Shown here: positions 1-44,630 of the stretch, piece by piece
How the letters are laid out: each line of letters opens with the position of its first letter
Position numbering within the stretch: position 1 is the first letter of the stretch
Assembly (NCBI GenBank): GCA_002163245.1
Contig: MAAL01000170.1
Location: 1-49,405, forward strand
Reading direction: 5' to 3'
DNA from: Gammaproteobacteria bacterium 42_54_T18
GTDB lineage: Bacteria > Pseudomonadota > Gammaproteobacteria > Pseudomonadales > Ketobacteraceae
DNA: 49,405 bases
Translations under genes and position numbers: made by a program
Notes under the pieces: model-generated
The model's input: the letters and a program-made list of their open reading frames with translations, nothing else
Database searches by the model: none
Told to the model about the DNA's origin: nothing

Positions 1-3000
1 TGAACCGCCCAATCCCCTGATCATAATACCTAGCCCTTAAGTAATACTGATCAAGGCTCTTATCAAACTGCTCTCCAGTGAACTTATAGCTATTCTCGGT
101 TGTACCAGTTTCCTCCAGCACATCACCAAACGCCTCATAGCTATAAGTGTCCGTTATAGCCCCTGTAGCGTCTGTAAGGGCTCTCGTAGACCCTAACCCA
201 TCATAAGAGTAGAACCTGAAGTCCCCACCTCTACCCTGATTCAACAAGTCATGACCATACGTATAAACAACACTTGCAGGAGCAGTCTCAATATCCCCAA
301 CAACCTCTTCAAGAACCTGTGCATAATCCCTGTTCAAGTCCACTACAAACTGTGTTTTTACACCACCTTCAGTCTTAGACGTCCTGATACCATTCGAATC
401 ATAAGCATACCCAGTGACAACTCCACCTTTATCAACAGATGTCATCTTGTTCTTAGCATCATAGAAGTAAGTGGTAACAACAGCATCCAACGTTTCAGTC
501 TTGGTATTACCGTTATCATCATGCGTATAAACGGTTCCACCTTGCGACGTCAGCCTATCATTCAGGTCATACGCATATTCAGTCTGCACACCGTCAACCG
601 TTTCATACTTCCGATTACCAACCCAATCATAAATGTAGTTCGCGTTGTAGACTTCAGAGCCACCTTCAGTAACCACTTCATCAGTTAATCGATACAAATT
701 GTCATACGTGTAATCTGTAAAGCGACCATCAGCTTCAGTGATATCATCTCTGCGACCAGTGTCATCAAGACCATAGGTGTAGCTGCTTAATACAACCCCG
801 TCTTTATCCTTAGTGGTTAACACTTCAAGCTGATTCACATCGTTGTACTGATACTCACTCACGACACCATTAGGGAACGTTACAGTCCATAAGCTTCCGT
901 TATCGTAATAGGTATAACTTGTGACACCACTTGCATCAGTAACTGTATCCAAACGATTCAAAGCGTCAAACGTGTAGTCCGTTACAGTGATGATTGTTCC
1001 GCGAGTTACCTTAACTTGCTCTCGGTTACCTACATCATCATATTCGTAATCAAGACGTGTACCATCAGGTTTTATTTCATAATCTAAACGGTCTCTTACA
1101 TCGAATGCTGTTTCAGTTACGCCATGCTGGTCTGTGACTGTGTGTACCTGACCGTTATCCCAGTAGGTGTAGGCTTCTGAATTGCCGTCATGATAATCGA
1201 TATGGTCTACACGTCCTTGGTTATCGATGTAGGTTGTATTGGTCTTACCGTTGAAGTCGGTATGTGCAACGGTTCGCGCTGAGTCGTCATAGGTGAACGT
1301 CTCCGTCATGCCTTCCGGTAATTCTCTTGTGAGAACACGCCCAAAGTAATCATAGGTCCAACTCGTTACACGACCTTCAGCATCCGTTTGGGTCAACTTG
1401 TTACCGACTTCGTCATAGGTGTAAAACGTGTCAGGTACAGGTTGTCCATTGATCAACACTTCAGGCGTTACCGTTTCTAAACGACCTAAATCATCATAGC
1501 CGTAACGGGTAGTACGACTGTTCTGATCAATCTGTTTAGTACGCGCACCCATTGCATCATAACGTTGCCCTGCTGCTGTTCCATTATGAAACTCGGTAGT
1601 AATACGCTGATCGAACTCATTAATGTTATACGTTGTTACACGCAATAACGGATCCGTTTCCGTATGTAACTCACCATTTTCGTAATAGGTATACCCATGG
1701 CGTATTTCATCTGCACCAACATATCTGATTACAGCTTTACGACGACCATTTAAGAAGTATTCATATTCGGTTAGGTTGCGTTTTTCATCCCACTCAAACT
1801 GTACCCAGCCTTGCGGCGTGTATTTTGTTTCTGTGTACGAGCCATTGTGGAAAGTCGTTTTCCACAATCGTGCGGCATCGTCATATTCATATTGGGTTTC
1901 ATGCCCTATACGATCAATGACTGACTCCAACAAACCCTCGTTGCTATACCCACGTATCTCTGTGGTGCCATCAACATAGGTTGTAAGTTTTAAGCGGCCA
2001 TAAACGTCGTAATCATAATCCGTCCACACTCCAAAACGATCACGTTCTTGGTCGATGTTTCCGGCCAGATCGTATTTTGTTTCTGTGTAAGTTGCGTCTG
2101 GATATGTAGTTTTAGTTAAGCGATCTCGATCGTCGTAGTCATAACCAACTGTTTCTGTAATAACAACGTTATTAACTGTTCGCTCTCGAGCTTCAGTTTT
2201 GACGTTATTATTGTCATCATAGGTGTAAGTAACTGTTCCTGATATATCGTTCGACTCTGTCCACTTTTGAAATTCCCAATCATGTGTAGACGGGTAATAG
2301 GTGTAGGTAGTGACCATTCCACGCAAGTCGGTCGTGCTATCAACTAAACCATTTCCATTAATAACATTACTCGCCGTGAGCATTGTCACTTCTCCAGAAT
2401 CAGGATCTGTCAACGCAGGCATCGTGATGTGTTCAAGACTACCTCTATCGTTGTATTCCATCACCGTTTCACGATCTAACTCATCGAAGATTTTTCCTTC
2501 TTGGCCTCGAGCATTATAGCCCTCATAGCGAACCCGGTTATGTTCTGGGTCCTCTGCGAACAGCTGGTTATTGTCTTCGTCAAATTCACTAACCCATGTA
2601 TAAAGAGTACCGCCGATGGCTTTAGTTTCTTGGTTATCGTTCTCGTCATAAGTGTATGACGTTACGATATCGCCACCCGCTACTATTTTAATTTCCTCTT
2701 TTACATTGCCTCGATCATCATAATTAAAGTGAGTTTCACGACCATCTAAGTCAGTTATTATTGACGTTCGATCGGTTATATTGTGATTAAACGATTTAGT
2801 AATCCCGTCACCATTTTCTTGACCAACCAATCGACCATCATCGTCGTAGATATTCTTCATCACTTTTCTGTTCAGTGGATCAACAATATCGATCAAGCCA
2901 TGATTGCCATTGTAGGTGTAGCTGGTTTTTGCATTTAGCCGATCTTTGTTAAACTCAAGATCACCGTTTGCATCGTATTCATAATGCATTACCAGGTCAC

Positions 3001-6000
3001 CGGAAGAGCGCTTCACATCTGAAATTCGCCCATCACCATCTCGAATGAAATCCAATGACTTGCCAGAGGAATGGCTAATACCAGAGTCCGTATACGTCAG
3101 CACATGACCATTGGGACCGGTGATAGTCTTTATGCCAAAGTCCTGATCAATGATATACACGTAACCGGCTTTTGTAGTGAGCTTGTAATTCTGCACCTTA
3201 ACCACAACACCTGGATCATCAATATATTCCAGGTTACCGTTATCAAGGTCCGATAAAAACAGCTGACCCAAACCAATTGCTTCTAAGGTTGACTGTGTGT
3301 CGCCCTTAGGAAGAAATTCTAGCGTCATGTATCTACTTGTGTACAAATTGCAATGTGGATTTCCTACTGCCTCCAGGGAATCATTCGACGGTCTAGGTTT
3401 TGGAATAAATGTTTCCACTTCACCATTAGGTAATGTAATTGTGACCACTTTTTTGTACAACGGATAAGTACAATGTGCTCGGGCAGTGAAAAAACCCGAT
3501 GGTGATTTAAACGCCATTGTAAAAGTTTGTTCTTCCAAATAAAAACCAACGGTAGGCTCTAAATTTTCCTCCAAACGAAGATTTTGGTAATCAATACTCC
3601 ACCCATACCCAAAGTCCATTGATTCGTCACGGCGTCGACTATCATAGGTTCTCGACACACTGATCGGGAATCCGGCCATTGGTATATTGGCATCAACTAC
3701 AGTAAAGCTGAAGTTACCTACTTTGAGGTCGCCCGATACAACAACAGATCTATGCACACCAGCGGTCAAACCACTGCTATCTGTTGCTTGTAACAACAGC
3801 TGATAGGTACCGTTAAGTAAATTTGTCGTATCAAAACTAGCAATAGCTTCATTTACAAATGATTTTGGCCCTCGATACAATTCCACAAAATCTTCAATTT
3901 GCACTATATCGCCAAGCGGCTTATCTGCTCGTTTATAATGAAGTGTAACTTCAACGAGATTATCGTCTTGCGCTGTAACAAATATTTCTGTAGGTGCAGT
4001 TATATCAGCAAGGTTAACCGGGGAATTAAATTCAACGACAGGCGGAGTTATATCCGCTGGATCCCGCACGAAAATACTCGTTTCACGGATGATGGTTTGT
4101 AACCCATCAGTGATAGTAGCGACTACAGGAATCACGCCCACATGGGTTGGTGTAACTTGTATCTCCAACATGGCATCTACAGTTACCGGCTCACCATCAA
4201 CTGTTATCTCGACTTGAGGCGTTGAAGCTTCGTTTTCCGTAATTACCGAAACGGTAACTGACTCACCAAAATCTATTATATTCGTAGGAGATATTTGTAT
4301 TTCGGCATCCAGCAATGCTGAATCAGGCACAACTTCTAAATACCAAAACTCACTATTAGAAGAAGCATAATTACCTAAACTATCAATGGCTTGTGCAGAC
4401 ATCCAAACCTTTCCAAGCTTGGTTGGAATCCATGTAATAACACCATTCCCATCAATTTCAACTCCTGAGGCAAATGACGAAATCTTGTAGTTAATAGGTG
4501 TATCGCCTTCGCGATCAGTTGCTAATACTTCGTGAGTAAATCCAACGCCCAGCTTTGCGAATTTTGGCCTGTATGCTGGAACAAACTCTGGAGCATGGTT
4601 ATAAAAGGGCTTTACGTTAATGTAAAACTTCTGAAGAGTCACAGCCCCTTTCTCATCAGTCACACCGACCCAAATAATATAGTTATAATTAGCGCCAGTG
4701 TCAGTTAAATCCTGTTCAGTCGGTTCCCACGTCAACAATCCTAGCTCATTGATTTCGAGCCCGGGAACGCCTACAACCAGTGAATATGACAGCATATCGC
4801 CATCTGGATCATGAGCAACAATTTGATACTTATAAGGACGCGACACTTCCGCGGATTTCACTGGAGAAGATGTAATTACCGGCACCTGATTACTATCAGA
4901 CACACTCACGACAAATTCTTGAATATCCACATTGTTAACGCTGTCACTTAGTCTAATGCGAATCGTATGATCATCAACCTGTGCATCTCCTGGAATCCAC
5001 CTCAAATAATACTTACGTTGATTTGCACCGACTTTTACCAACCCAACACTCATTTGAGGAGGCCCCTCTTCAAGTACAATTTTTAAATTATCTCTGTTGT
5101 CATACAAACCCAACGGAATATCATTACTAATATCAATAAGATAATTATATTCCAGACCGACAAATGCAGAGGTAGGTGGAGTAGAGTCTATTTTAGGTGC
5201 AGTGTTGGGCAAAACCTCAACATCAAAATATCGAATTTCTGTTGTTTCAGCCCCTCGCGCATCTCTTAATTTTAATTCAAATTGATAATCCCCTATTTCT
5301 GTCGGCGTCCAATGTAGAAACCGCCTACAACTTGGGCACGAAGGCCAATAATCCCATGTACTTAGCATATCGATAGACGCACCCTCAGGAGCGTTAACCA
5401 ATGAGAAATCAGGGCCATCACCATCGACATCACTTACATCGATTTCGTATTTATATTCATCTTGATGAAAATCAAGATAGTTCGTGTTGTATACATAAGG
5501 AACACCAACTGTCGCGGTAGTTGCATGAACAGCTTCCTTAAAAACTGTTGCTGTATTAAAAGCCTTGTATTTGTGCAACTGAAAACGTTGTTTTACTACC
5601 GCTCCATTCAAATCAGTTACCTGAACAGCAACCTGTTGATACACTTTTTCTACGGCACTAACATTAACCCATTCCAATAAACCCGTATCACTAATTGTCA
5701 TGCCAGAAGGAGCCTGTTCTAAACTATAAGTTAATAAATCACCGTTCGGGTCAATTGCCTCTACTTGATAGTTGTAGCTTTGCTCCATTACCACTGAAAG
5801 ATTAGGTAGCGAGGTTATTACAGGCGCTTGATTGCTATCGGCCAACAACCAAGATATTGAAACAGTTTTCTCCAAATTACCTACCTGCACGGCTACGTCA
5901 TCGATACCGACTTGATGACTGGAGTAACAATATTCTGCTTCACCGTACTGGTTTGACATCGCATAACCAATAGTCGTCTGCGTGCCCTCAACAACAAACT

Positions 6001-9000
6001 TCACCCTTACACCATGAGCAGGTTTAAAGTCAGTTTTTTTCACCGAGGCGCTAACACATATAGACTCTCCTAGCTTTTGATTGGGCTCTACATCAACCAA
6101 TAGTGAGGCCACCTCAGCGGGCAAGCTAAATGCCATCCCCCCTAGGTACCCATAAGAATCATACGAATCATAACCGTAAACGATTAACCCAAAGGGATCA
6201 GCGGACTCAATCTGATGACTGCCTGTTGTTACTTTAAGCTGCGCATAAGAATAAGCAGAACCATTAATAACATTGAACTTTGCAGGATCAACAGCAACAC
6301 CATCCAAGAATGCAGAATCAATAGCGCTTGTAGGAATCATTACATTTAGAAAATTATGCGTTATGTCGTAGGAGGGCGTATTTACGGTGTATTTGGTTAA
6401 ATATTGTTCCGAAGGTGGTACCACGACCATAAAAGGGTCCCTTGGAATATTCGTATTATCGACTTTAAAGCTTTTCCGATTGAGGCTACTAGAGAACTGT
6501 AGAACCATAATCGGCTGACTTGCGTGAATGCTTTGTGGTTTTATTGAGGCGAACTCGTAAAACTCTTGGCTATCCAGTTGACGGACCAACACACCATTAA
6601 CATACACTTGAGTATCGTCAAATGGTGCAACTATACGAAAAACATCACCACAATTATCATACCCATAATTACAGCTTCCGGTGTAATCAGGGACACTTCC
6701 AAAAAGCGGGGCAGTTATATAATCAACACCAAGGCTTTCTATCGGGGGTAATTGCTCAATCAAATGATCACAGGCCGCATGCGTTTTTGGAACATAAGCA
6801 CAATCATGCTCCCCCAATACTACAATTGGTTTATCTGAATCGATTAAGGTGCCAGTGAAATCAGCAACTTTAGAGCCCCTTGCGCTAAGGTTATACACAT
6901 CGCCAGCATTTAAGTTTAAGGTATAAATATCCCCAGCTTTTACCGCGTCATGTTCATGATCTACTACATTTTCACCAAAAAACATATCCATGGAAGCTTT
7001 GATTTTAACTTGTGTATCATCTTTGGTAGCAATAATGCCAACTACCGGGCTTCTCACAGCATCTAGTAATGTTGTGTAATGACCCACAATATATTGCTTA
7101 CCCAAAGATGAGGCGGGTAACCCTAATAATCCGTCGGTACTGTATTTACGCTGGTTAAGCATATAAACCGACATATTGTCTGTTGATGTAATATGTATCG
7201 CATGGTTCTCTAACACTCGGTTTGTATCAAGCCCACTGACATTAACAAACTCCTCTACGGGAATGCTATAGGTTGAAATAACACCCTGGGTTAAAGCGAT
7301 ACTTTCTGTTTTTCCTAATATCGGTATTTCTATAGTGACGTTTACATTAGGTTGTTGCGATACCATATAGATATGATAAACAGTGTCCGTCAATTTGAAA
7401 TTTTTTGCCGCCGCCAACCAAAAATCAGTTCCTTCATGAGTCGCAGCACGCTTGGTAGACAATACCTCAAGCAATAGCGATTGCTCATCCGTTAAACCGT
7501 TATCATCCTGAACCACAAACGTGAATTCATAATTACCCGGTACAACATCTGCGGTCAGCCATGACACTTCTCCCGTTAGTGAGTTTATTGCCATCGCGTT
7601 AGGTAACGCCTCTGGCTGAACAACCGAATACATTAAATTGTCATCATCTGGGTCTGATGCTTCTAGTGTATAACTCCACAGATCACCCTCCAGGACAAAA
7701 ACTTCAGGCGTTGAAGTTATCTCTGGCGGTTGATTATCCGACGTTACTACAACAAGAAAACTGACAGAGTGATTATCCACACCGTCACTTACACTTACCG
7801 ATATAGGGCCATAGCTTCCTTCGTCACCTTGGTTTGGGGCAATAATTATTTCGGTATTGTTATGGCTAGCAAAGCTTGGTAAGCCTACGACACTGTATGT
7901 TAATAGATCGCTGTCAACATCTGTCGCCTGTAAAGTGAGAACAATCGTTTGATTTTCTGATACGCTTTGATTTGCTATTGCGGATAATTTAGGAGCGTCA
8001 TTAGTGTTCGCTACCGCAATCATGTAGCTTTGTGTTTCGGTTAAGTCTCCATCCGCAACAATGATAGTGATAGCATGATCACCCGACTGTACAAAGGACG
8101 GGATCCAACTAACGACACCGCCTCCATTAACCGACATGCCTTCAGGGGCACCCACAAGTTGATATGTAAGCGCATCACCATCAGGGTCATTTGCTAAGAC
8201 ATTATATTGATAATCCGTATTTTCAGAGGCATTCGTAATCGGCGTAGAACTAATAACCGGTGCTTGATTCGTATTTTTAACCGTTAACGTAAAACTCTGC
8301 TGAACACTTTGCTCACCATCCGAGACTTCAACTACAACTAACTCTGCACCAGCATCATTAAAGGTTGGCGTCCAGGTAATAACACCCGATAACAAGCTAA
8401 TATTCATACCCGCTGGCAATACAGATAATGAATATGTTAGCGAACCACCATCAGCATCCGTTGCAATTACTGAATATTGATACTCTTGTCCTTCCGCGAT
8501 AGTGGTAATTGGTAAACTGGTAATTGTGGGTGCTTGGTTATTGTTAGTTACGTTAATGGTGAACGTTGATGTACCACTATCAACACCGTCCGTTGCTGTA
8601 ACAGTAATTGGGCCATAACTTCCTGCATCATCGTACCCAGGAGTTATGGTAATTTCTGCACCATTAAGACTCGCAAAGCTTGGTAACCCTACAACACTAT
8701 AAATCAACGTATCGTTGTCGGCATCGGTAGCACTTAATGAAACAGTAATCGTATTATTTTCTACAACGGTTTGATTTGTGATTGCAGTTAATACGGGTGG
8801 CTGATTGGTATTTACAACGGTAATAACAAAACTTTGTGTTGCCGTTAAAACACCATCACTTGCCGTTACCGTGGCAGTGTGATCACCGGACTGTGTAAAT
8901 GTTGGAATCCAGCTAATCTCTCCACTGGTATTAATCAACATGCCAGGTAAAGGTGCAGTGAGCTGATAATCAAGTGCATCACCATCAGCATCACTGGCTA

Positions 9001-11374
9001 CAACAGTATATTGATACACCATATTTTCAGTTGCAGACGTAATAGGTGCGGAGTTAATAACCGGCGCTTGATTCGTATTATTTATCGTTATCGTATAGCT
9101 TTGCTGCACACTTTGTTGACCATCGGTCACATTGACAATAACAAGTTCTGCACCAGAAGATGTAAAGTTTGGTTCCCAAGCGACCACACCCGATAACGGA
9201 TTTACGCTCATACCGGTAGGCGCCACACCTAACGAATATGTTAATACATCCCCATCATTATCCATTGCTACAACGTTATATTGGTAACTTTGCCCCTCTG
9301 CAATAATGGTTACCGGTATACTGGTAATTTCTGGGGACTGATTGTTATTTGTAATTGTCAGCGCAAACGTGGTGCTATCGGTATCTATGCCATCCGTTAC
9401 GGATACAGTAATAGGGCCATAAGCTCCTGCAGCATCATAATTTGGAGTAACTGTAATTTCTGATCCCGACAGTGTTACGAAACTCGGCAGACCAGTAACA
9501 CTAAATGTTAAGGCATCGTTATCGGCATCACTGGCATCTAAAGAAATTATCGCGTTGGTATTTTCTAATACAGTTTGATCAGCAATAGCGGTCAGAACAG
9601 GCGCCGCATTAAAATTACTACAGGTATCCCCTCCTCCTTGTGAGAAATTTTGGTCAACTTCTTGTTGGATTAATGCACGGCTATAAACAGCAACAAGGTG
9701 AATATCTCCCAACCAGTTACGATCCGTTCCATTTTCATTGGCAAGACCAAAAACGTAGCTGTTATTCCAATTCTCCATGCTACTTCCGATAGTAGCCGTT
9801 TTAACAAGTGTTCCGTTTTTATAGAGCTTTGCTTGACCAAGATTATCACGGGTATAAACAACGTGAGTTAATGTTGTGGTGGCATCATTTCCAGTACCAC
9901 TTAAACTCGGAGAAAGGCCGTTATTACTTGTACTTGTTGTACGTAACCGAACATCGTAATTTGTTTTATTCTGTCCTAAAGTGAAGTTACGGTTTGAGCC
10001 GTCGATTGAATACGTCACAATTCGGGCTGGGCCACTTTGTGTCGTGTTATCAGGAGTTACCCACGCCTCAATGGTTAGCTCATTACTTGCCTGTACTGCA
10101 TCAATCATTTTTAGGGGAGATGAAGCTGCACTGACAAAAGTGGCCTGATCTATCGATAATCCACCACAGGATAACCAGGAAACCTTTGATGCATCCGGTA
10201 TCGTTAAGTTAATCGGTGTGCCTACGCCTGACAAATCATTAACGGTAGTACCTGCACCCTCACTAAAATTATAAAAAAGCACTTGATTCTGAACAACACG
10301 GCCTGACGCTAACACAACAACCATTTGACTCATTTGGTCTGTTGCACCCTGGTCATCAGTCGTGACTAATGTAACAGTATATTGACCTGCATTTGCGAAA
10401 GTATGAGATATGTTCACTCCAGTAGCGCTAGAGCCATCACCAAAATCCCAAGCGTAATTAACAATACTGCCATCGACGTCATAGGATGCACCTGCATCAA
10501 AATCAACAGTATATTCCACACCATTTGTTACTTTCTCAAAACTAAAATCTGCTGAAGGTGCTTGTCCGCAGGTACCAACAACTCCCATATTCAAGTTCTG
10601 AATCACTTCTGCTGTCGATAATGCACGATCATAAACTGCAACATGAAACAATTTACCCAACCAATTACGATCTGTTCCAATCTCATTCGCTAGCGCAAAC
10701 TGCATGGTGTCATCCCAGCTTGATACTGAGCCATCAACGGTTTTTGTAACTGAGGCAACTCCATTGATATACGTTATCGCATTACCACTGGCATCACGGG
10801 TAAAAACAACGTGTGTTGGATCAATAAGGGACATCGCTACATTGGAAGAAGTTTCCACATAAGGGCTAGTGCCGTTGTCTCCGGCAGTTGTCGTTCTCAA
10901 CCGTGTTTGATAAACACCTTTATTTTGACCAAGCGTCACATTTCGCTTATAGCCACCATCCGATAAGGTAACTATTCTGGCTGGACCAGATTGGGAAGTA
11001 CTCGCAGGAGTAATCCAGGCCTCAACCGTTAACGCTTCTGATGCTTTAACACCATCAATGATTTTAGTAGCAGGTACGCCACTACTTATCAGCGCAGTAC
11101 TATTTACTGACAATCCGCCACATTCTAACCACTGGGTATTTTCGGCGTTATCGATAGTAAGGTTTAGCGCTGGCGTTACCTCAGATACATCGTTAACCGT
11201 TGAACCGCTTCCTTCCAGGAAGTTGTATTCAGCCACAAGGTCTAAAGTGACACGCGAAGGCTCAGCCGCAAAGGAGCTTGACATTACCAGCACTGAAGCC
11301 AGCACCATAGTAAAGAAAACTGACCTCACAGGTGCGCGCAGACAAGCAGAACGATTAAACAAAGCATCGGACAT
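1..11374 (-). CDS. Giant secreted RHS-repeat protein, C-terminus cut by window edge
   Basis: An open frame runs from ATG 11374 to the left edge, at least 3,790 codons. I checked the frame at several points (bases 9487, 7438, 5467, 3619, 7) and saw no stop. Approximate order by residue: signal peptide 1-37 (cleavage after FAA); LamG-type domain 45-268; PKD domain 272-355 (AWDFGDGSS); second LamG 360-581; seven or eight Ig/cadherin-like domains 587-1310; an IgGFc-binding-like module from 1313 (HEGTDFWLA) to about 1750; an invasin-like Ig domain 1752-1838; further Ig-like domains to about 2550; an RHS entry segment near 2585 (RTYDSRRRD, FGYGWSID); and dense YD/RHS repeats from about 2760. The last residues, RARYYDQGIGRF, are the usual end of an RHS core. 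RHS shells enclose a variable C-terminal domain, often a toxin; here that domain lies outside the window. The Sec signal and adhesion-type domains suggest a cell-surface or released protein, with no PAAR domain seen. Start context is weak. Confidence 0.93.
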   Translation of the reverse strand, partial: MSDALFNRSACLRAPVRSVFFTMVLASVLVMSSSFAAEPSRVTLDLVAEYNFLEGSGSTVNDVSEVTPALNLTIDNAENTQWLECGGLSVNSTALISSGVPATKIIDGVKASEALTVEAWITPASTSQSGPARIVTLSDGGYKRNVTLGQNKGVYQTRLRTTTAGDNGTSPYVETSSNVAMSLIDPTHVVFTRDASGNAITYINGVASVTKTVDGSVSSWDDTMQFALANEIGTDRNWLGKLFHVAVYDRALSTAEVIQNLNMGVVGTCGQAPSADFSFEKVTNGVEYTVDFDAGASYDVDGSIVNYAWDFGDGSSATGVNISHTFANAGQYTVTLVTTDDQGATDQMSQMVVVLASGRVVQNQVLFYNFSEGAGTTVNDLSGVGTPINLTIPDASKVSWLSCGGLSIDQATFVSAASSPLKMIDAVQASNELTIEAWVTPDNTTQSGPARIVTYSIDGSNRNFTLGQNKTNYDVRLRTTSTSNNGLSPSLSGTGNDATTTLTHVVYTRDNLGQAKLYKNGTLVKTATIGSSMENWNNSYVFGLANENGTDRNWLGDIHLVAVYSRALIQQEVDQNFSQGGGDTCSNFNAAPVLTAIADQTVLENTNAIISLDASDADNDALTFSVTGLPSFVTLSGSEITVTPNYDAAGAYGPITVSVTDGIDTDSTTFALTITNNNQSPEITSIPVTIIAEGQSYQYNVVAMDNDGDVLTYSLGVAPTGMSVNPLSGVVAWEPNFTSSGAELVIVNVTDGQQSVQQSYTITINNTNQAPVINSAPITSATENMVYQYTVVASDADGDALDYQLTAPLPGMLINTSGEISWIPTFTQSGDHTATVTASDGVLTATQSFVITVVNTNQPPVLTAITNQTVVENNTITVSLSATDADNDTLIYSVVGLPSFASLNGAEITITPGYDDAGSYGPITVTATDGVDSGTSTFTINVTNNNQAPTITSLPITTIAEGQEYQYSVIATDADGGSLTYSLSVLPAGMNISLLSGVITWTPTFNDAGAELVVVEVSDGEQSVQQSFTLTVKNTNQAPVISSTPITNASENTDYQYNVLANDPDGDALTYQLVGAPEGMSVNGGGVVSWIPSFVQSGDHAITIIVADGDLTETQSYMIAVANTNDAPKLSAIANQSVSENQTIVLTLQATDVDSDLLTYSVVGLPSFASHNNTEIIIAPNQGDEGSYGPISVSVSDGVDNHSVSFLVVVTSDNQPPEITSTPEVFVLEGDLWSYTLEASDPDDDNLMYSVVQPEALPNAMAINSLTGEVSWLTADVVPGNYEFTFVVQDDNGLTDEQSLLLEVLSTKRAATHEGTDFWLAAAKNFKLTDTVYHIYMVSQQPNVNVTIEIPILGKTESIALTQGVISTYSIPVEEFVNVSGLDTNRVLENHAIHITSTDNMSVYMLNQRKYSTDGLLGLPASSLGKQYIVGHYTTLLDAVRSPVVGIIATKDDTQVKIKASMDMFFGENVVDHEHDAVKAGDIYTLNLNAGDVYNLSARGSKVADFTGTLIDSDKPIVVLGEHDCAYVPKTHAACDHLIEQLPPIESLGVDYITAPLFGSVPDYTGSCNYGYDNCGDVFRIVAPFDDTQVYVNGVLVRQLDSQEFYEFASIKPQSIHASQPIMVLQFSSSLNRKSFKVDNTNIPRDPFMVVVPPSEQYLTKYTVNTPSYDITHNFLNVMIPTSAIDSAFLDGVAVDPAKFNVINGSAYSYAQLKVTTGSHQIESADPFGLIVYGYDSYDSYGYLGGMAFSLPAEVASLLVDVEPNQKLGESICVSASVKKTDFKPAHGVRVKFVVEGTQTTIGYAMSNQYGEAEYCYSSHQVGIDDVAVQVGNLEKTVSISWLLADSNQAPVITSLPNLSVVMEQSYNYQVEAIDPNGDLLTYSLEQAPSGMTISDTGLLEWVNVSAVEKVYQQVAVQVTDLNGAVVKQRFQLHKYKAFNTATVFKEAVHATTATVGVPYVYNTNYLDFHQDEYKYEIDVSDVDGDGPDFSLVNAPEGASIDMLSTWDYWPSCPSCRRFLHWTPTEIGDYQFELKLRDARGAETTEIRYFDVEVLPNTAPKIDSTPPTSAFVGLEYNYLIDISNDIPLGLYDNRDNLKIVLEEGPPQMSVGLVKVGANQRKYYLRWIPGDAQVDDHTIRIRLSDSVNNVDIQEFVVSVSDSNQVPVITSSPVKSAEVSRPYKYQIVAHDPDGDMLSYSLVVGVPGLEINELGLLTWEPTEQDLTDTGANYNYIIWVGVTDEKGAVTLQKFYINVKPFYNHAPEFVPAYRPKFAKLGVGFTHEVLATDREGDTPINYKISSFASGVEIDGNGVITWIPTKLGKVWMSAQAIDSLGNYASSNSEFWYLEVVPDSALLDAEIQISPTNIIDFGESVTVSVITENEASTPQVEITVDGEPVTVDAMLEIQVTPTHVGVIPVVATITDGLQTIIRETSIFVRDPADITPPVVEFNSPVNLADITAPTEIFVTAQDDNLVEVTLHYKRADKPLGDIVQIEDFVELYRGPKSFVNEAIASFDTTNLLNGTYQLLLQATDSSGLTAGVHRSVVVSGDLKVGNFSFTVVDANIPMAGFPISVSRTYDSRRRDESMDFGYGWSIDYQNLRLEENLEPTVGFYLEEQTFTMAFKSPSGFFTARAHCTYPLYKKVVTITLPNGEVETFIPKPRPSNDSLEAVGNPHCNLYTSRYMTLEFLPKGDTQSTLEAIGLGQLFLSDLDNGNLEYIDDPGVVVKVQNYKLTTKAGYVYIIDQDFGIKTITGPNGHVLTYTDSGISHSSGKSLDFIRDGDGRISDVKRSSGDLVMHYEYDANGDLEFNKDRLNAKTSYTYNGNHGLIDIVDPLNRKVMKNIYDDDGRLVGQENGDGITKSFNHNITDRTSIITDLDGRETHFNYDDRGNVKEEIKIVAGGDIVTSYTYDENDNQETKAIGGTLYTWVSEFDEDNNQLFAEDPEHNRVRYEGYNARGQEGKIFDELDRETVMEYNDRGSLEHITMPALTDPDSGEVTMLTASNVINGNGLVDSTTDLRGMVTTYTYYPSTHDWEFQKWTESNDISGTVTYTYDDNNNVKTEARERTVNNVVITETVGYDYDDRDRLTKTTYPDATYTETKYDLAGNIDQERDRFGVWTDYDYDVYGRLKLTTYVDGTTEIRGYSNEGLLESVIDRIGHETQYEYDDAARLWKTTFHNGSYTETKYTPQGWVQFEWDEKRNLTEYEYFLNGRRKAVIRYVGADEIRHGYTYYENGELHTETDPLLRVTTYNINEFDQRITTEFHNGTAAGQRYDAMGARTKQIDQNSRTTRYGYDDLGRLETVTPEVLINGQPVPDTFYTYDEVGNKLTQTDAEGRVTSWTYDYFGRVLTRELPEGMTETFTYDDSARTVAHTDFNGKTNTTYIDNQGRVDHIDYHDGNSEAYTYWDNGQVHTVTDQHGVTETAFDVRDRLDYEIKPDGTRLDYEYDDVGNREQVKVTRGTIITVTDYTFDALNRLDTVTDASGVTSYTYYDNGSLWTVTFPNGVVSEYQYNDVNQLEVLTTKDKDGVVLSSYTYGLDDTGRRDDITEADGRFTDYTYDNLYRLTDEVVTEGGSEVYNANYIYDWVGNRKYETVDGVQTEYAYDLNDRLTSQGGTVYTHDDNGNTKTETLDAVVTTYFYDAKNKMTSVDKGGVVTGYAYDSNGIRTSKTEGGVKTQFVVDLNRDYAQVLEEVVGDIETAPASVVYTYGHDLLNQGRGGDFRFYSYDGLGSTRALTDATGAITDTYSYEAFGDVLEETGTTENSYKFTGEQFDKSLDQYYLRARYYDQGIGRF
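7745..9612 (-). repeat. Three-domain (A-B-C) super-repeat of Ig/cadherin-like domains, period about 0.8 kb
   Basis: Consecutive domains of about 89 residues fall into three alternating types. Type A carries ENxT, GLPSF and GSYGPI. Type B carries AEGQ.YQY, GAELV and QSVQQS. Type C carries YQY, DGDAL.YQL, SWIP and QSGDH. They begin near residues 587 (A), 678 (B), 767 (C), 856 (A), 945 (B), 1034 (C) and 1125 (A). The unit of amplification is therefore a three-domain block of about 268 codons, present about 2.3 times. A divergent domain follows at about residue 1214. Confidence 0.8.
9632..11242 (-). repeat. LamG-PKD-LamG duplication inside the RHS gene
   Basis: Two LamG/concanavalin-like domains of about 220 residues (coding bases about 11242-10571 and 10297-9632) share the same blocks in the same order: YNF.EG.G.TVND, W..CGGLS, SGPARIVT, TLGQNK, RLRTT, THVV.TRD, TDRNWLG and VAVY.RAL. 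A PKD domain separates them. This is an internal duplication that has diverged at protein level. LamG domains commonly bind glycans or proteins, so a paired binding head is a reasonable inference. Confidence 0.8.
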
Positions 11375-11759
11375 AATAGATTCTCGAAAGATTAAAATCG
11401 GATTTTTAACGTTTAGCAGGGAGAGAGACAATACATCAACAACCGAAACAACAGTGTATTGGTGCAAAAAGGAGGTTTTAGCCAGTACCTTGGCTTTATC
11501 GGTTACCTTAGGCAACTAACGTGAGTAAAACTCCGTTTTTACTATCGGCTACTCATTGGAAGCACACGACCACATGCCTACAAAAGAGTTCCCTGATTTT
11601 CAGCGGGGAACTTATCAGCATTGGCATATGTTTTCAACGTGATTATTGTTACGACATATCGTTGCTGCACATAGTAATGTCAGCTCAACGCGCCAATGTA
11701 TATACCACGCCCATGAATACACTCAGCGACCGTATAGAAAGATAATCAAATAGGTAAAA
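11375..11759 (-). promoter_or_regulatory. 385-nt leader/intergenic region upstream of the RHS gene with two adjacent hairpins
   Basis: No convincing gene is seen here. Read on the minus strand, two small hairpins stand next to each other between about 11517 and 11479. The first has six pairs (GTTGCC/GGTAAC, one G-T, loop TAA). The second has five pairs (AGCCA/TGGCT, loop AGGTAC) and is followed by AAAACCTCC and a run of five T. This could be a structured leader, an attenuator, or a weak terminator for the small lipoprotein gene upstream. I cannot assign it to a known riboswitch class. Confidence 0.3.
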
Positions 11760-12025: not shown

Positions 12026-12640
12026 TTACGTATTCACTTTTTTACGAACGCCCCACAGACCTGTCAAACCTAACAGAAACAAAGACAACGTTGAAGGCTC
12101 TGGAACTTCAACAGCCCTAACCAGCCATGACGCTTCCTGACCCCAACCGGCCTCAGTAGCGTGATAGGTTGTTGCAAACGTTGTGTACACGTCATTCACC
12201 TCATCTGTGAATAGCTGCGTCATCCAACGCTCGCCTGAGTCTGCATCGACATCGGCCAACATACCCAAACTATTATTATAGGGATAAGAGCTAGCACTAG
12301 AAGGGACATAACCAATTAAATCCATCAAGACGTCCGTAGTGCTGCCATCGACGCCATCGACAATCCCACAAAAATTACCAGCAGAACAAGTCATCGCACC
12401 GAAGCCTTGCCCAAACAGTAAATTTTCCCACTGAACGCCAGTTGCGTATTCCCAACCCTCGAAAGCTCCACCGGCACCAAACTGATCAACAACCTGAGCA
12501 GATGTTAACCCCACAGTTGCCTCAAGCTTAAGCCACTCCAAACCGGAAGCCGTATCCTGAACATAATTTCCGTGATCAATTAAAGTAGCATTAACGCTAG
12601 TAGAGAAGAGAAGTGCTATTGCACAAAGTACCTTTTTCAT
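12026..12640 (-). CDS. PEP-CTERM sorting domain-containing secreted protein, 204 aa
   Basis: The protein starts with a signal peptide (MKKVLCAIALLFSTSVNA) and ends with a typical PEP-CTERM tail: VPEPSTLSLFLLGLTGLWG followed by RKK. In this family the PEP motif, transmembrane stretch and basic end are recognised by an exosortase, which cleaves the tail during export or surface anchoring. No exosortase gene is in the window. The central part (TASGLEWLKL near residue 33, GWEYATG near 65) resembles secreted proteins of the DUF1566/Lcl-like kind that often carry this tail; their function is unknown. An AAGGAG ribosome binding site precedes the ATG. Confidence 0.9.
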   Translation of the reverse strand: MKKVLCAIALLFSTSVNATLIDHGNYVQDTASGLEWLKLEATVGLTSAQVVDQFGAGGAFEGWEYATGVQWENLLFGQGFGAMTCSAGNFCGIVDGVDGSTTDVLMDLIGYVPSSASSYPYNNSLGMLADVDADSGERWMTQLFTDEVNDVYTTFATTYHATEAGWGQEASWLVRAVEVPEPSTLSLFLLGLTGLWGVRKKVNT

Positions 12641-13010
12641 TTTCTAAAACTCCTTGGCTGTATTTCATTTTAAGTAGCATCCTGCTAAAGACTCCTGCCC
12701 CCAAAAGTACCTAACATACAATACCCGCGACACTATACAGACAGAATATTATGCGCACAACATCTAGATGTCTTTCACAAACCCATCCCATCAATGATTC
12801 AACCATTACAATTTTTACACAATGCTTATACTTCCACGCAATAACCACTAAAACCAATAGACCATTAAACGCTATCACAAGACAAACCAGGCAGATTTAT
12901 CGCATACTCATAGACATCTGAACGACGTTATAAAACCCGCTCACAAGGCGATTTTATTAATCCTTGCATATCCGTGTGATCCTCGGATGTTAATACAAGG
13001 GGTAGAGAAT
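12641..13010. promoter_or_regulatory. Divergent intergenic region between the PEP-CTERM gene and hppD
   Basis: These 370 bp hold the promoters for the minus-strand PEP-CTERM gene and the plus-strand tyrosine-degradation operon. I see a perfect 12-bp palindrome ACATCTAGATGT at 12760-12771 with TAATAT about 17 bp away on the PEP-CTERM side. AAGGAG lies next to the PEP-CTERM start and AAGGGG next to the hppD start. No convincing small gene was found. Confidence 0.45.
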
Positions 13011-14099
13011 ATGGGCTCATTCCACACGGCTGCAGCACAGCCTGCATTTAACCCAACAGGCACCGAAGGTTTTGCCTTTGTTGAATTCACGTCTGCACAA
13101 CCAAATTTGTTACATACATTATTCAAAAAAATGGGATTTTCCGCAGTATCAAAACACCCACAAAAACCACTCACCTGGTATCAACAAGGCAACATTTATT
13201 TCCTGGTGAATGATCACCCCTATGGGTTTACTGCAGATTTTGAACAACGTCATGGTTCTTCTGCCTGTGCGATGGCGTTTAGTGTCAAAGATGCATCACA
13301 GGCTTACCAATATGCAATTAGTCATGGGGCGCATCAATGCTTACCCCACAGCCTTGAATTTCAGGTGCCGGCAATCTACGGCATTGGCGACAGTGTGTTA
13401 TATCTTGTCGATTCAAACAATAATCCGGCAATTCATTCTAGCCATTTTAAACAACTACCTTCCTCGTCCGAATTCACGAATATTCCCACTGTTGGCTTAC
13501 TCGAAATGGATCACCTCACTCACAATGTCTTTCAAGGAAAAATGGATAGCTGGGCAGGTTTTTACCAAGATATTTTTAACTTTCATGAAATACGATATTT
13601 TGACATCAAAGGGAAACACACTGGCCTGTTAAGTCGAGCCATGACCAGCCCCTGCGGTAAAATTAAGATCCCAATCAATGAGGCTACCGATCAGCAATCA
13701 CAGATTGAGGAATACTTAAGAGACTACAACGGTGAAGGTATTCAACACATAGCGTTAACCACCAATGACATCATCAACACCGTTAAACAGCTAAAATCTA
13801 ATGGCATCGAGTTTATGGAGGTGCCGGATAGCTATTACGATATGATTGAACAAAGGCTACCTGGACACCAACATGATATTAATCAACTGAGAGAACATGC
13901 CATTTTAATTGACGGCCATAAAGAAAACGGGCGCTGGAAGATACTATTACAAATTTTTACTAACACCGTCATTGGCCCCATTTTTTTTGAAATCATTCAA
14001 CGGTTAGGTGACGAGGGTTTTGGGGAAGGAAACTTTCAAGCGTTATTTGAAGCCATGGAAAATGATCAAATTCGACGAGGCATTATTAAACCAGAGTAA
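13011..14099 (+). CDS. hppD: 4-hydroxyphenylpyruvate dioxygenase
   Basis: This Fe(II) enzyme converts 4-hydroxyphenylpyruvate to homogentisate, the entry step of tyrosine and phenylalanine breakdown through the homogentisate pathway. The 362-residue protein has the two vicinal-oxygen-chelate halves. The C-terminal half carries the iron ligands in their usual contexts: His168 (MDHLTHNV), His246 (GEGIQHIAL) and Glu327 (FFEIIQR), followed by GDEGFGEGNFQALFE, a family hallmark. I chose ATG 13011 over the upstream ATG 12987 because AAGGGG lies at the right distance and the protein then starts like known bacterial homologues. It is the first gene of a four-gene operon; hmgA begins 5 bp after the stop. 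No HmgR-type regulator is adjacent. Confidence 0.96.
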   Translation: MGSFHTAAAQPAFNPTGTEGFAFVEFTSAQPNLLHTLFKKMGFSAVSKHPQKPLTWYQQGNIYFLVNDHPYGFTADFEQRHGSSACAMAFSVKDASQAYQYAISHGAHQCLPHSLEFQVPAIYGIGDSVLYLVDSNNNPAIHSSHFKQLPSSSEFTNIPTVGLLEMDHLTHNVFQGKMDSWAGFYQDIFNFHEIRYFDIKGKHTGLLSRAMTSPCGKIKIPINEATDQQSQIEEYLRDYNGEGIQHIALTTNDIINTVKQLKSNGIEFMEVPDSYYDMIEQRLPGHQHDINQLREHAILIDGHKENGRWKILLQIFTNTVIGPIFFEIIQRLGDEGFGEGNFQALFEAMENDQIRRGIIKPE

Positions 14100-14104
14100 C
14101 GCAC

Positions 14105-15250
14105 ATGAAAGATTGGATTCGATTCCCCAAAAGCTCCGGAGAATGTTCACGACAAGCTCACGCGGATTTCCCCGCAGGAGCGCCTTATGAGCGCGAAGTG
14201 AGTCGTGATGGATTTTATGGCCCCGCCACACATATCCATCACCGTCATGCCCCTACTGACTGGAGTCATTGGCAAGGTAGCTGTCGACCTCGAGCATATG
14301 ATCTCAGCCGGTGGCCACAACACCAGAATTCACTGTGGCAAGTTCAACCTATTCTACACAATGCAGATTGCCAATTACAATTCTGGACATTAACCTCCTC
14401 TATGCAACACCTATTACGTAATGCCGATGGCGATCAATTATTGTTTGTGCATAAGGGTGATGGCCAACTATTTTGTGATTATGGTGAACTTACGTTTTCT
14501 GAAGGTGACTATCTACTAATACCCCGCGGAACCTTATGGCGAATTTCTTGTAAAAATGAGATTTCACTTTTCACCATTGAAGCCACGGACCAACGTTTTG
14601 CGTTGCCAGACAAGGGGATTGTTGGGCAACACGCCATCTTTGATTGCAATGCCATCATCACAGCAGAGATCAATCAATGCTTTCTCGCTCAGCAAGATGA
14701 AGAAAGCTGGTCAGTTGAGGTTAAACATAACCAACAAATATCAACTATCCGCTACCCCTTCAATCCACTGGATGCCATTGGTTGGCACGGTGATGTTTGT
14801 GCCTTAAAAATCAACTGGCGTGATATACGACCATTGATGAGCCATCGATATCACTTACCCCCTTCTGCCCATAGCACCTTTGTTGCCGATAACTTTGTAG
14901 TTTGCACCTTTGTTCCCCGACCTTTTGAGAGCGACCCTGGCGCTTTAAAAGTTCCGTTTTATCATAGCAATGAGGATTATGATGAAATAATTTTTTATCA
15001 TCAAGGTGAGTTTTTTAGTCGAGATCATATTTATCCCGGCATGTTAAGTTTTCATCCGAGAGGATTCACTCATGGCCCTCACCCCAAAGCTTACAAAAAC
15101 TCCTTTTCCCAACAACACCAACAAACCAACGAGGTGGCTGTAATGATTGATACACGTAAGTCAATGATGGCCATCAGCGAAGAGGAAGGCTTACCTAACA
15201 ACATTGAATGGAAGGGCTATGTCGATAGCTGGAAAAGCCATGAAAAATAG
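14105..15250 (+). CDS. hmgA: Homogentisate 1,2-dioxygenase
   Basis: This enzyme opens the ring of homogentisate with O2 to give 4-maleylacetoacetate. The 381-residue protein is of the shorter bacterial type (the Pseudomonas enzyme is about 430 residues). Visible features are a cupin-like segment in the middle (VHKGDGQLFCDYGE near residue 117) and a C-terminal half with VPFYHSNEDYDEIIFYHQGE and FHPRGFTHGPHP, which supply the His/Glu iron ligands of the family. The start is 5 bp behind hppD, with GAG about 8 nt upstream. Position between hppD and fahA supports the assignment. Confidence 0.93.
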   Translation: MKDWIRFPKSSGECSRQAHADFPAGAPYEREVSRDGFYGPATHIHHRHAPTDWSHWQGSCRPRAYDLSRWPQHQNSLWQVQPILHNADCQLQFWTLTSSMQHLLRNADGDQLLFVHKGDGQLFCDYGELTFSEGDYLLIPRGTLWRISCKNEISLFTIEATDQRFALPDKGIVGQHAIFDCNAIITAEINQCFLAQQDEESWSVEVKHNQQISTIRYPFNPLDAIGWHGDVCALKINWRDIRPLMSHRYHLPPSAHSTFVADNFVVCTFVPRPFESDPGALKVPFYHSNEDYDEIIFYHQGEFFSRDHIYPGMLSFHPRGFTHGPHPKAYKNSFSQQHQQTNEVAVMIDTRKSMMAISEEEGLPNNIEWKGYVDSWKSHEK

Positions 15251-15262
15251 GGGTACCACATC

Positions 15263-16258
15263 ATGAAACTTGCAACACAATACAGCGCCAATCGAGATGG
15301 TCAGTTACTGGTTGTCTCTCGTAATATGCAATATGCCATTGCTGTTCCTGATATTTCCCCGACACTACAATATGCCATTGAAAACTGGCAACATTGTGCA
15401 CCCTTGCTAAATGACAAATACCAACAACTAAATCTAGCTAACGATCCAAGCGACAATACAAAAAACATCATTGATTTCACTCAGTGCAAACTGATGTCAC
15501 CTTTACCTCGATGTTATCAATGGGCCGACGGTAGTGCTTATGTAAATCATGTAGAGCTTGTACGAAAAGCCAGAGGTGCAGAGATGCCTGATTCATTCTG
15601 GAAAAGCCCACTTATGTATCAGGGTGGTGGTGATAGCTTTCTCGGACCAACGGAAAACATCCCACTAATGAACGAGAATTGGGGCCTCGACTTAGAAGCC
15701 GAAATTGCCATTATCACCGACGACGTTACGGAAGGCACAAGCATTGAAAGTGCCGAAAAACACATAAAACTGTTTATGTTGGTGAACGATATCTCTCTGC
15801 GAAATTTAATTCCTGAAGAGTTGGCCAAAGGTTTTGGTTTTTTTCAGAGTAAACCTTCCAGCAGTTTCAGCCCCGTTGCCGTTACCGCAGATGAACTGGG
15901 TGATGCTTGGAATGGAAAAAAACTACACCTACCTTTAACAAGTCACATAAACGATACGCTATTTGGTCAACCTAACGCAGGCATAGATATGACATTTGAT
16001 TTCCCTACTTTGGTAAGTCATGCATGTAAAAGCCGACGTTTAATCGCGGGGAGTATTATTGGATCAGGCACGGTATCAAATTATGATCGTAGCAACGGCT
16101 CATCCTGTATTGCGGAAAAACGTATGTTAGAGAAGATTGCCACCGGCAGTATAATCACTCCCTTCTTAACTGACGGAGATAGTATTTGTATAGAAATGTT
16201 TGATAGCAACGGGCTGTCTATATTTGGTGCTATCAAACAACGGGTGGTATCTCAATGA
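15263..16258 (+). CDS. fahA: Fumarylacetoacetate hydrolase family protein
   Basis: This protein would cleave fumarylacetoacetate to fumarate and acetoacetate, the last step of the pathway. It has 331 residues. The central FAH-fold motif is present: NWGLDLEAEIAIITDD, with the acidic pair that binds the divalent metal. SGTVSNYDRSNGSSCIAEKR and FLTDGDSICIEM further on are typical of the FAH C-terminal domain. The N-terminal 90 residues form the small extra domain seen in this type. An AGGGG ribosome binding site precedes the ATG. Its stop codon overlaps the maiA start (ATGA), so the two are probably translationally coupled. Confidence 0.93.
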   Translation: MKLATQYSANRDGQLLVVSRNMQYAIAVPDISPTLQYAIENWQHCAPLLNDKYQQLNLANDPSDNTKNIIDFTQCKLMSPLPRCYQWADGSAYVNHVELVRKARGAEMPDSFWKSPLMYQGGGDSFLGPTENIPLMNENWGLDLEAEIAIITDDVTEGTSIESAEKHIKLFMLVNDISLRNLIPEELAKGFGFFQSKPSSSFSPVAVTADELGDAWNGKKLHLPLTSHINDTLFGQPNAGIDMTFDFPTLVSHACKSRRLIAGSIIGSGTVSNYDRSNGSSCIAEKRMLEKIATGSIITPFLTDGDSICIEMFDSNGLSIFGAIKQRVVSQ

Positions 16259-16905
16259 TTTTATACAGTTACTTCCGATCCAGTGCCGCTTACCGTGTAC
16301 GTATTGCGTTAAATATCAAAGATATCAACTACAGTATAAAACCCATACATTTATTGAAATCTGGAGGCGAACAACATCACCCAGAATTCCACCAAATAAA
16401 CCCACAGAATTTGGTACCGGTGCTCACCCATAACAACCGAAACATAAGCCAGTCTCTCGCAATTATGGAGTATTTGGAAACATGCCAGCCAACCCCTTCA
16501 TTATTGCCCGAAAACACGAACAACAACATCGCATGCCAAGAATTTTCACTTATCATTTGTTGTGATATACATCCACTCAATAATCTACGGGTACTAAATT
16601 ACCTAAAACACGATACTGAGTCAGAAATTGATGTCACTCAATGGGTCCAACATTGGATTAATGAAGGCTTCTCTGCCCTGGAAACAAAAATATCATCCGT
16701 AAAAGACAACAGTGGTGGAAAATACTGTTATGGGGACACCGCTACGATAGCTGACTGCTGCCTAATTCCACAGATATACAATGCATTGCGTTATGACATC
16801 GATATGTCGATGTACCCGACGCTTAACAGGGTATATCAACACTGCCTGGCACAACCTGAATTCCGTCAAGCTGCACCAGAACAACAAATCGATTTCCCAG
16901 GCTAA
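16255..16905 (+). CDS. maiA: Maleylacetoacetate isomerase (zeta-class GST)
   Basis: This enzyme performs the glutathione-dependent cis-trans isomerisation of maleylacetoacetate to fumarylacetoacetate. The 216-residue protein begins with the zeta-class signature YFRSSAAYRVRIALNI, with the active-site serine pair; the Cys found in the eukaryotic SSC motif is Ala here, common in bacteria. NLVPVL and SLAIMEYLE follow as the glutathione-binding part, then an all-helical C-terminal domain with the N-cap-like GDTATIADCCL. It is the last gene of the operon. Its stop codon overlaps by 3 bp that of the convergent downstream gene, so both genes end on the same bases. Confidence 0.94.
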   Translation: MILYSYFRSSAAYRVRIALNIKDINYSIKPIHLLKSGGEQHHPEFHQINPQNLVPVLTHNNRNISQSLAIMEYLETCQPTPSLLPENTNNNIACQEFSLIICCDIHPLNNLRVLNYLKHDTESEIDVTQWVQHWINEGFSALETKISSVKDNSGGKYCYGDTATIADCCLIPQIYNALRYDIDMSMYPTLNRVYQHCLAQPEFRQAAPEQQIDFPG

Positions 16906-44626: not shown

Positions 44627-44630
44627 AACG

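Follow-up and report, generated by a model that had tools for sequence, protein, structure and literature searches.

The stretch of DNA analysed here (the window, 49,405 bases) is the complete contig MAAL01000170.1 (C78) of a 6.66 Mb assembly in 199 contigs. At one end, it carries a giant RHS gene, whose product we consider likely to be an RHS-type polymorphic toxin exported by Sec, with an adhesive head, a stalk, a shell and a tip toxin that is missing here and would be paired with a downstream immunity gene. In the proposed mechanism, the adhesive head (LamG, PKD, Ig arrays and IgGFc module) would hold the protein on the surface of the producer and/or bind the surface of a partner, the Ig arrays would serve as the stalk, and the RHS core would form a closed shell. 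Inside it, the C-terminal tip missing here would be a toxin that is released upon contact and that the downstream immunity protein neutralises in the producer. Tips would be exchanged through recombination in the final third of the core. The closure of the shell is predicted from sequence homology alone, and for the window protein we infer surface display, release, an antibacterial target and a toxin in its own copy. Sec-type RHS polymorphic toxins are already known; the adhesive variant described here is unusual.

The RHS frame (2-11515, minus strand) comprised 3,838 codons from a TTG and ran off the contig end. Translation probably starts at the ATG at 11374 (MSDALF...), from which 3,791 codons were read to base 2. 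An initial annotation, made from the sequence, had described an unbroken frame of at least 3,790 codons and had named a sequencing-level frameshift as one of two findings that would speak against it; neither a stop nor a frame break was found inside the frame. The Sec signal that it had proposed was recognised as a signal-peptide-like start, judged by sequence and hydropathy only: a basic start and a hydrophobic stretch, followed by SFAA and then EPS. The LamG-PKD-LamG head, the Ig-like arrays, the IgGFc module and the RHS core of that annotation were all recovered by Pfam/NCBIfam (Table 1), with Laminin_G_3 in two stretches (3e-39), PKD_4 (2e-24), He_PIG in 10 stretches (2.3e-82), IgGFc_binding (3.9e-69), DUF6531 (1.1e-6) and RHS_repeat (1.1e-31). 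About 2,500 residues of LamG/Ig precede the RHS core, and the length of the frame and the domain scores are far above chance level. For the IgGFc module, no meaningful solved relative was found by sequence. Elsewhere in the window, a tyrosine-catabolism cluster (12987-16905, plus strand) contains consecutive HPPD-like, homogentisate dioxygenase-like, fumarylacetoacetase and GST genes, and a UvrD-type helicase gene adjoins a PD-(D/E)XK nuclease gene (40922-47342, minus strand), an arrangement that reads as AddAB/RexAB-like.

Table 1. Features of the giant RHS gene and its upstream neighbour in the window
Feature	Coordinates	Strand	Basis or remark
Giant RHS gene, truncated at its 3' end by the contig end	2..11374	-	3,791 codons from ATG
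Signal peptide (predicted), MSDALF...SFAA	11264..11374	-	Sequence and hydropathy
LamG-PKD-LamG head	9656..11233	-	Pfam Laminin_G_3 (two stretches) and PKD_4; boundary of first LamG approximate
He_PIG/Ig-like arrays flanking the IgGFc module	3728..9655	-	Pfam PF05345, 10 stretches
IgGFc_binding module	6173..7129	-	Pfam PF17517, 3.9e-69
RHS core, beginning with DUF6531 and cut by the contig end	2..3727	-	Pfam and NCBIfam
Rhs_assc_core domain, truncated	2..139	-	Model positions 1-45 of 76
Core block, codons 3101-3700, probable recombined block with sharp tip-side edge	275..2074	-	Identity to congener L029
PEP-CTERM protein gene, candidate surface partner	12026..12640	-	Pfam PF07589, 3e-6

The edge of the window is the end of the assembly, and the gene is cut there. 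Rhs_assc_core was matched by NCBIfam at frame residues 3793-3838 as far as model position 45 of 76, which leaves the core short of some 31 model positions leading to the DPxG junction. The end of the core, the junction and any tip therefore lie outside the assembly, and the earlier statement that the core ends at GIGRF, 1-2 residues before the edge, was abandoned: the core continues. The 150 bp at the contig edge had no second copy in the assembly (other matches spanned only 17-28 bp). When the assembly was probed with the tail of a relative, no continuation was found on another contig, and besides the window itself the tail matched only other RHS genes. A fragment on contig C28, considered as the missing end, was rejected: it had no match to the window's end and belongs to a different gene.

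Relatives were collected with a probe of 301 residues around the Ig-to-RHS join (E<=1e-20). The probe matched in 11 of 390 genomes of an order-level sample (13 loci) and in 6 of 369 genomes of a class-level sample (6 loci), each count including the window's genome; combined, the samples gave 18 loci, i.e. the window and 17 related loci (designated by L numbers). The adhesive-RHS family is rare and patchy in these order and class genome samples. The last 600 residues of the window protein matched a congener at 88% (L029, MAG contig CAJXZM010000045.1), in which the complete RHS gene has 4,125 codons. Among plasmids, 14 records matched the probe at 29-38% identity over the 301 residues; all were cyanobacterial, hence of a different phylum, and most were annotated as 'putative Ig domain-containing protein'. 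The regions of three were examined, and on the Oscillatoria plasmid (L105, NC_019730.1) the Ig-RHS giant is close to an RHS gene, an annotated Imm10 immunity protein and two polymorphic-toxin-type HINT genes. Two cyanobacterial core relatives (L031, L032) were scanned and had no IgGFc module, and a scan of viral contigs returned no relative of the giant protein. Two further arrangements were recorded: contig C24 of the window's genome encodes a large RHS protein with a transglutaminase-like domain (L038, 5514-13037, plus strand) and a 176-codon ORF 10 nt downstream, and one genome (G321) carries two RHS giants with a near-identical stretch of core (L077 and L078).

Thirteen members were compared by all-against-all BLAST (E<=1e-5), the five class-level loci being left out. 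The core was similar in 78/78 pairs, and residues 41-540 in 43/78, a figure inflated by common Ig domains. The tips, compared from 25 residues past the start of DPxG, were similar in 2 of the 55 pairs formed by 11 tips, namely L076-L077 (HINT in common) and L034-L078 (deaminase). Heads were scanned in 11 members and, over the first 600 residues only, in L088; the heads of L074, L078, L087, L089, L090 and L091 were left out. The head of the window protein is LamG; the others include vWA (L035, L076 in the form of VWA_4, and, judged by eye, L029 and L079), TSP_C (L034, L035, L036, L075), ice-binding-like (L073, L077), legume lectin (L077) and PASTA (L088) domains, and IgGFc_binding was present in 3 of the 11 (window, L029, L073). 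The family has one conserved core with two variable ends, the head and the tip.

The end of an intact frame was visible in 13 of the 18 loci; the frame of L078 is broken, and in the window, L074, L088 and L091 the gene extends past the contig end. These breaks and contig ends are what an assembly artefact or a decaying gene would produce, but we regard this explanation as extremely unlikely: the 3,791 codons contain no stop, the core is conserved across families, and contig ends in such genes may reflect internal repeats, or tips that vary within a mixed population. All 13 visible intact ends extend 145-322 residues beyond DPxG, and for this reason the RHS core of the window gene very probably carries a variable C-terminal domain as well. 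The expectation of the initial annotation that the core encloses a variable, often toxic, C-terminal domain therefore holds for the relatives, some of which have toxin domains; the cargo and the immunity gene of the window gene itself were not found in this assembly.

Tip domains were counted in 14 tips, i.e. the 13 intact ones and that of L078, taken from its second frame. With Pfam, a toxin or pretoxin domain was recognisable in 6 of the 14: a BURPS668_1122 deaminase in L034 (1.7e-6, 0.9 bit under the cut-off) and L078 (4.5e-7, over the cut-off), a NucA/NucB DNase in L036 (5.1e-5, over the cut-off), and PT-HINT in L076, L077 and L087. The remaining 8/14 tips matched no Pfam family, an NCBIfam scan of eight tips and two other items contributed no further toxin family, and for the tips of L029, L034 and L079 no meaningful match to a solved structure was obtained by sequence. 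In 11 of the 13 relatives with intact ends, an ORF that begins with ATG and has at least 60 codons started no more than ~110 nt after the stop; the exceptions were L036 (none before +1556) and L037 (+173). As a control, such an ORF was also present downstream of 38 of the 91 other genes in these loci (Fisher p=0.006), and because of this background the count supports, without proving, toxin/immunity pairing, the ORFs being ORFs and not proven genes.

These data also bear on the idea that the protein is a giant adhesin whose YD/RHS part would be merely structural or adhesive, as in animal teneurins, and no toxin would be delivered. Most of the protein is adhesive or stalk-like, the variable heads include lectin, thrombospondin-C, vWA, ice-binding-like and LamG types, and more than half of the tips have no recognised domain. 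We nevertheless consider this reading improbable: the tips are far more variable than the core, some of them are enzymatic toxin or HINT domains, and small ORFs follow the RHS genes more often than they follow other genes. The polymorphic-toxin reading is preferred.

Exchange of tips was suggested by two types of observation. Head-less orphan copies of core plus tip were found in two congeners (L030, L033): the L030 tip ends 19 residues after DPxG, beside a transposase-like ORF, and the L033 tip has a weak GIY-YIG match (0.0039) and a stop overlapped by a 291-codon LRR-type ORF. A further orphan is located behind L077; its core is split over two frames, is 94% DNA-identical to the adjoining full gene, and is followed by a PT-HINT tip, a small immunity-like ORF and a third HINT remnant. 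In addition, the window and L029 were compared at fourfold sites, of which 152/231 were kept in codons 3101-3700, versus 45/134 to the left of this block (codons 2501-3100, unaligned codons omitted; Fisher p=3e-9) and 5/21 to the right (Fisher p=2e-4). The nucleotide identity is 93% in codons 3681-3700 but 60% in codons 3701-3720, and the left edge of the high-identity block is gradual. The orphan tips and the sharp identity break would be consistent with recombination inside the core that swaps the end of the gene, a mode reportedly known for rhs genes from work by Jackson in 2009.

Two other local similarities were observed. L030 (325-475) and L033 (7390-7540) have in common a non-coding leader of ~130 bp and nearly the same core start, and their outer flanks differ; the leader was considered as a repeated mobile element and rejected, with only two full copies (L030, L033) in five congeneric genomes including the window's. 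In the Ig arrays (residues 1751-2500), the window protein and L029 are 10-30% identical in 50-residue windows. One Ig stretch (8252-8812, minus strand) has 85% DNA identity to L029 over 561 bp, the adjoining Ig arrays being far less alike, and may possibly be a second recombined block.

With regard to the export route, no PAAR or other T6SS-type domain was detected by Pfam in the giant frame, in agreement with the initial annotation, which had concluded that delivery must go through general secretion. The signal-peptide-like start makes Sec export likely, and this part of the proposal stands; Sec export accounts for the inner membrane only, and the genome also has a type II secretin (one over the cut-off, out of 7 matches) and T6SS sheath genes. 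Use of the T6SS by the giant protein is unlikely. Loading as a T6SS cargo effector via an unseen adaptor would draw on the sheath genes (4 VipB matches), on the one PAAR match of the genome and on the solved structures nearest to the core: a profile of 11 core sequences best matched T6SS Rhs shells (8qja, 1.9e-87; 7q97, 9.4e-82). This route is nonetheless given very little weight, as the PAAR match is a separate 96-codon frame on another contig and the giant itself combines a frame devoid of PAAR with a signal-peptide-like start and the long LamG/Ig region ahead of its core. Compared with T6SS Rhs effectors (solved shells 8qja, 7q97 and 8h8a), the window protein thus has a homologous RHS core and a signal-peptide-like start instead of PAAR.

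The same profile matched TccC/YenC subunits more weakly (4.7e-15 and worse), and the lectin-type heads of relatives could bind eukaryotic glycans, as would be expected of a Tc-like or other host-directed toxin against a eukaryote. This alternative is also highly improbable: TcA/TcB-type domains were found neither in the giant frame nor in the 10 window proteins scanned, and the immunity-like ORFs downstream of relatives fit a bacterial target.

RHS toxins that have a signal peptide and N-terminal laminin-G domains were described by Zhang et al. (2012; PMC3482391), and the combination of adhesive head and RHS capsule, presented in the initial annotation as the most unusual object of the window, is in this light less unusual. 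The Sec/T2SS-type RHS toxins resemble the window protein in signal peptide, laminin-G adhesive N-terminus and RHS core, and have a variable toxin tip and a downstream immunity gene; the IgGFc module, the very long He_PIG stalk and, in some members, the upstream PEP-CTERM gene distinguish the present family. Bacterial teneurin-like proteins are portrayed (PMC13018210) as adhesive toxins that are exported, have a YD shell and variable tips, and lack an evident delivery machinery; the window protein is likewise adhesive and predicted to be exported and YD-shelled, with variable tips in its relatives. Unlike the Gram-negative examples named there, which are predicted lipoproteins, it has no Cys after the signal-peptide-like stretch. 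It also differs in having no teneurin Pfam domain at E<=0.01, and a TEN_YD-shell match in the relative L034 falls below the cut-off. In the open-access literature, no report was found of IgGFc combined with RHS and toxin, and searches for He_PIG combined with RHS returned only unrelated reports.

Directly upstream of the giant gene, on the same strand and 651 nt before its ATG, is the gene of a 204-residue PEP-CTERM protein (27.5 bits versus a curated cut-off of 20.7; 6.7e-6 in the genome scan). PEP-CTERM proteins are reportedly sorted by exosortase (said to have been described by Haft et al. in 2006); the window's partner has the sorting motif, and no report of its pairing with an RHS giant was found in the open-access literature. 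The upstream gene was assessable in 16 loci (L089 and L090 were left out), and in five of them (window, L076, L088, L079, L034) a PEP-CTERM-type gene was directly upstream on the same strand. Those of the window, L076 and L088 are over the Pfam cut-off. That of L079 is at the cut-off in the genome scan and under it (16.0 bits) in the protein scan, and the L034 protein has no Pfam match, is 51% identical to that of L079 (6e-78) and is homologous to that of L076 (1.6e-23). L035 is a weak sixth case (VIT domain; PEP-CTERM 0.061). The other ten loci were judged from ORF ends, plus the Pfam genome scan for the genomes covered. In L034, L076, L079 and L088 the partner and the first plausible start of the RHS gene are 55-137 nt apart; the window is the loosest case, and its partner has only the sorting motif in common with the others. 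L034 has an additional PEP-CTERM gene downstream, and on a Nostoc plasmid (L106) no PEP-CTERM tail was seen by eye on the gene upstream of the relative.

The 11 genomes of the order-level loci have 0-13 PEP-CTERM matches each. There are 12 in the window's genome, and an exosortase is likely to be present there because of this number. For the 13 order-level loci, ~0.012 such neighbours were expected and 3 that reach or exceed the cut-off of the genome scan were seen (window, L076, L079; Poisson 2.6e-7), a value that is indicative only, being derived from rough gene counts for a pattern noticed post hoc. Within the 5-7 kb examined, none of the 11 other PEP-CTERM genes of the window's genome was followed by a giant exported protein. 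One PEP-CTERM gene of this genome is ~2.4 kb upstream of a type II secretin gene, on the same strand (L096, C141:22400-30000).

In L088, the RHS head (1-5553) has calcium-type loops in a pair as well as PASTA repeats and is beside a cohesin PEP-CTERM gene (5679-6374), both on the minus strand. The partner has a Cohesin domain (2.7e-7; its solved match, scaffoldin C, is weak at 0.14), and the RHS head starts with two DxDxDG loops, a pairing that we take to resemble a dockerin. From this reading of the sequence the head appears dockerin-like; Pfam Dockerin is weak (0.076), and the best solved matches of the loops are EF-hand proteins (0.0035).

We tentatively propose, as a possibility held with less than even confidence, that the exosortase-sorted PEP-CTERM proteins encoded upstream could be surface anchors of these Sec-exported RHS giants, and that in one lineage a cohesin on the anchor would pair with a dockerin on the toxin head. 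The recurrent PEP-CTERM-type gene, homologous in L034, L076 and L079 and cohesin-bearing in L088, is a concrete candidate for holding the toxin on the Gram-negative cell. If the proposal is true, it would explain how Gram-negative cells retain on their surface those RHS toxins that have no T6SS, T5SS or lipid anchor.
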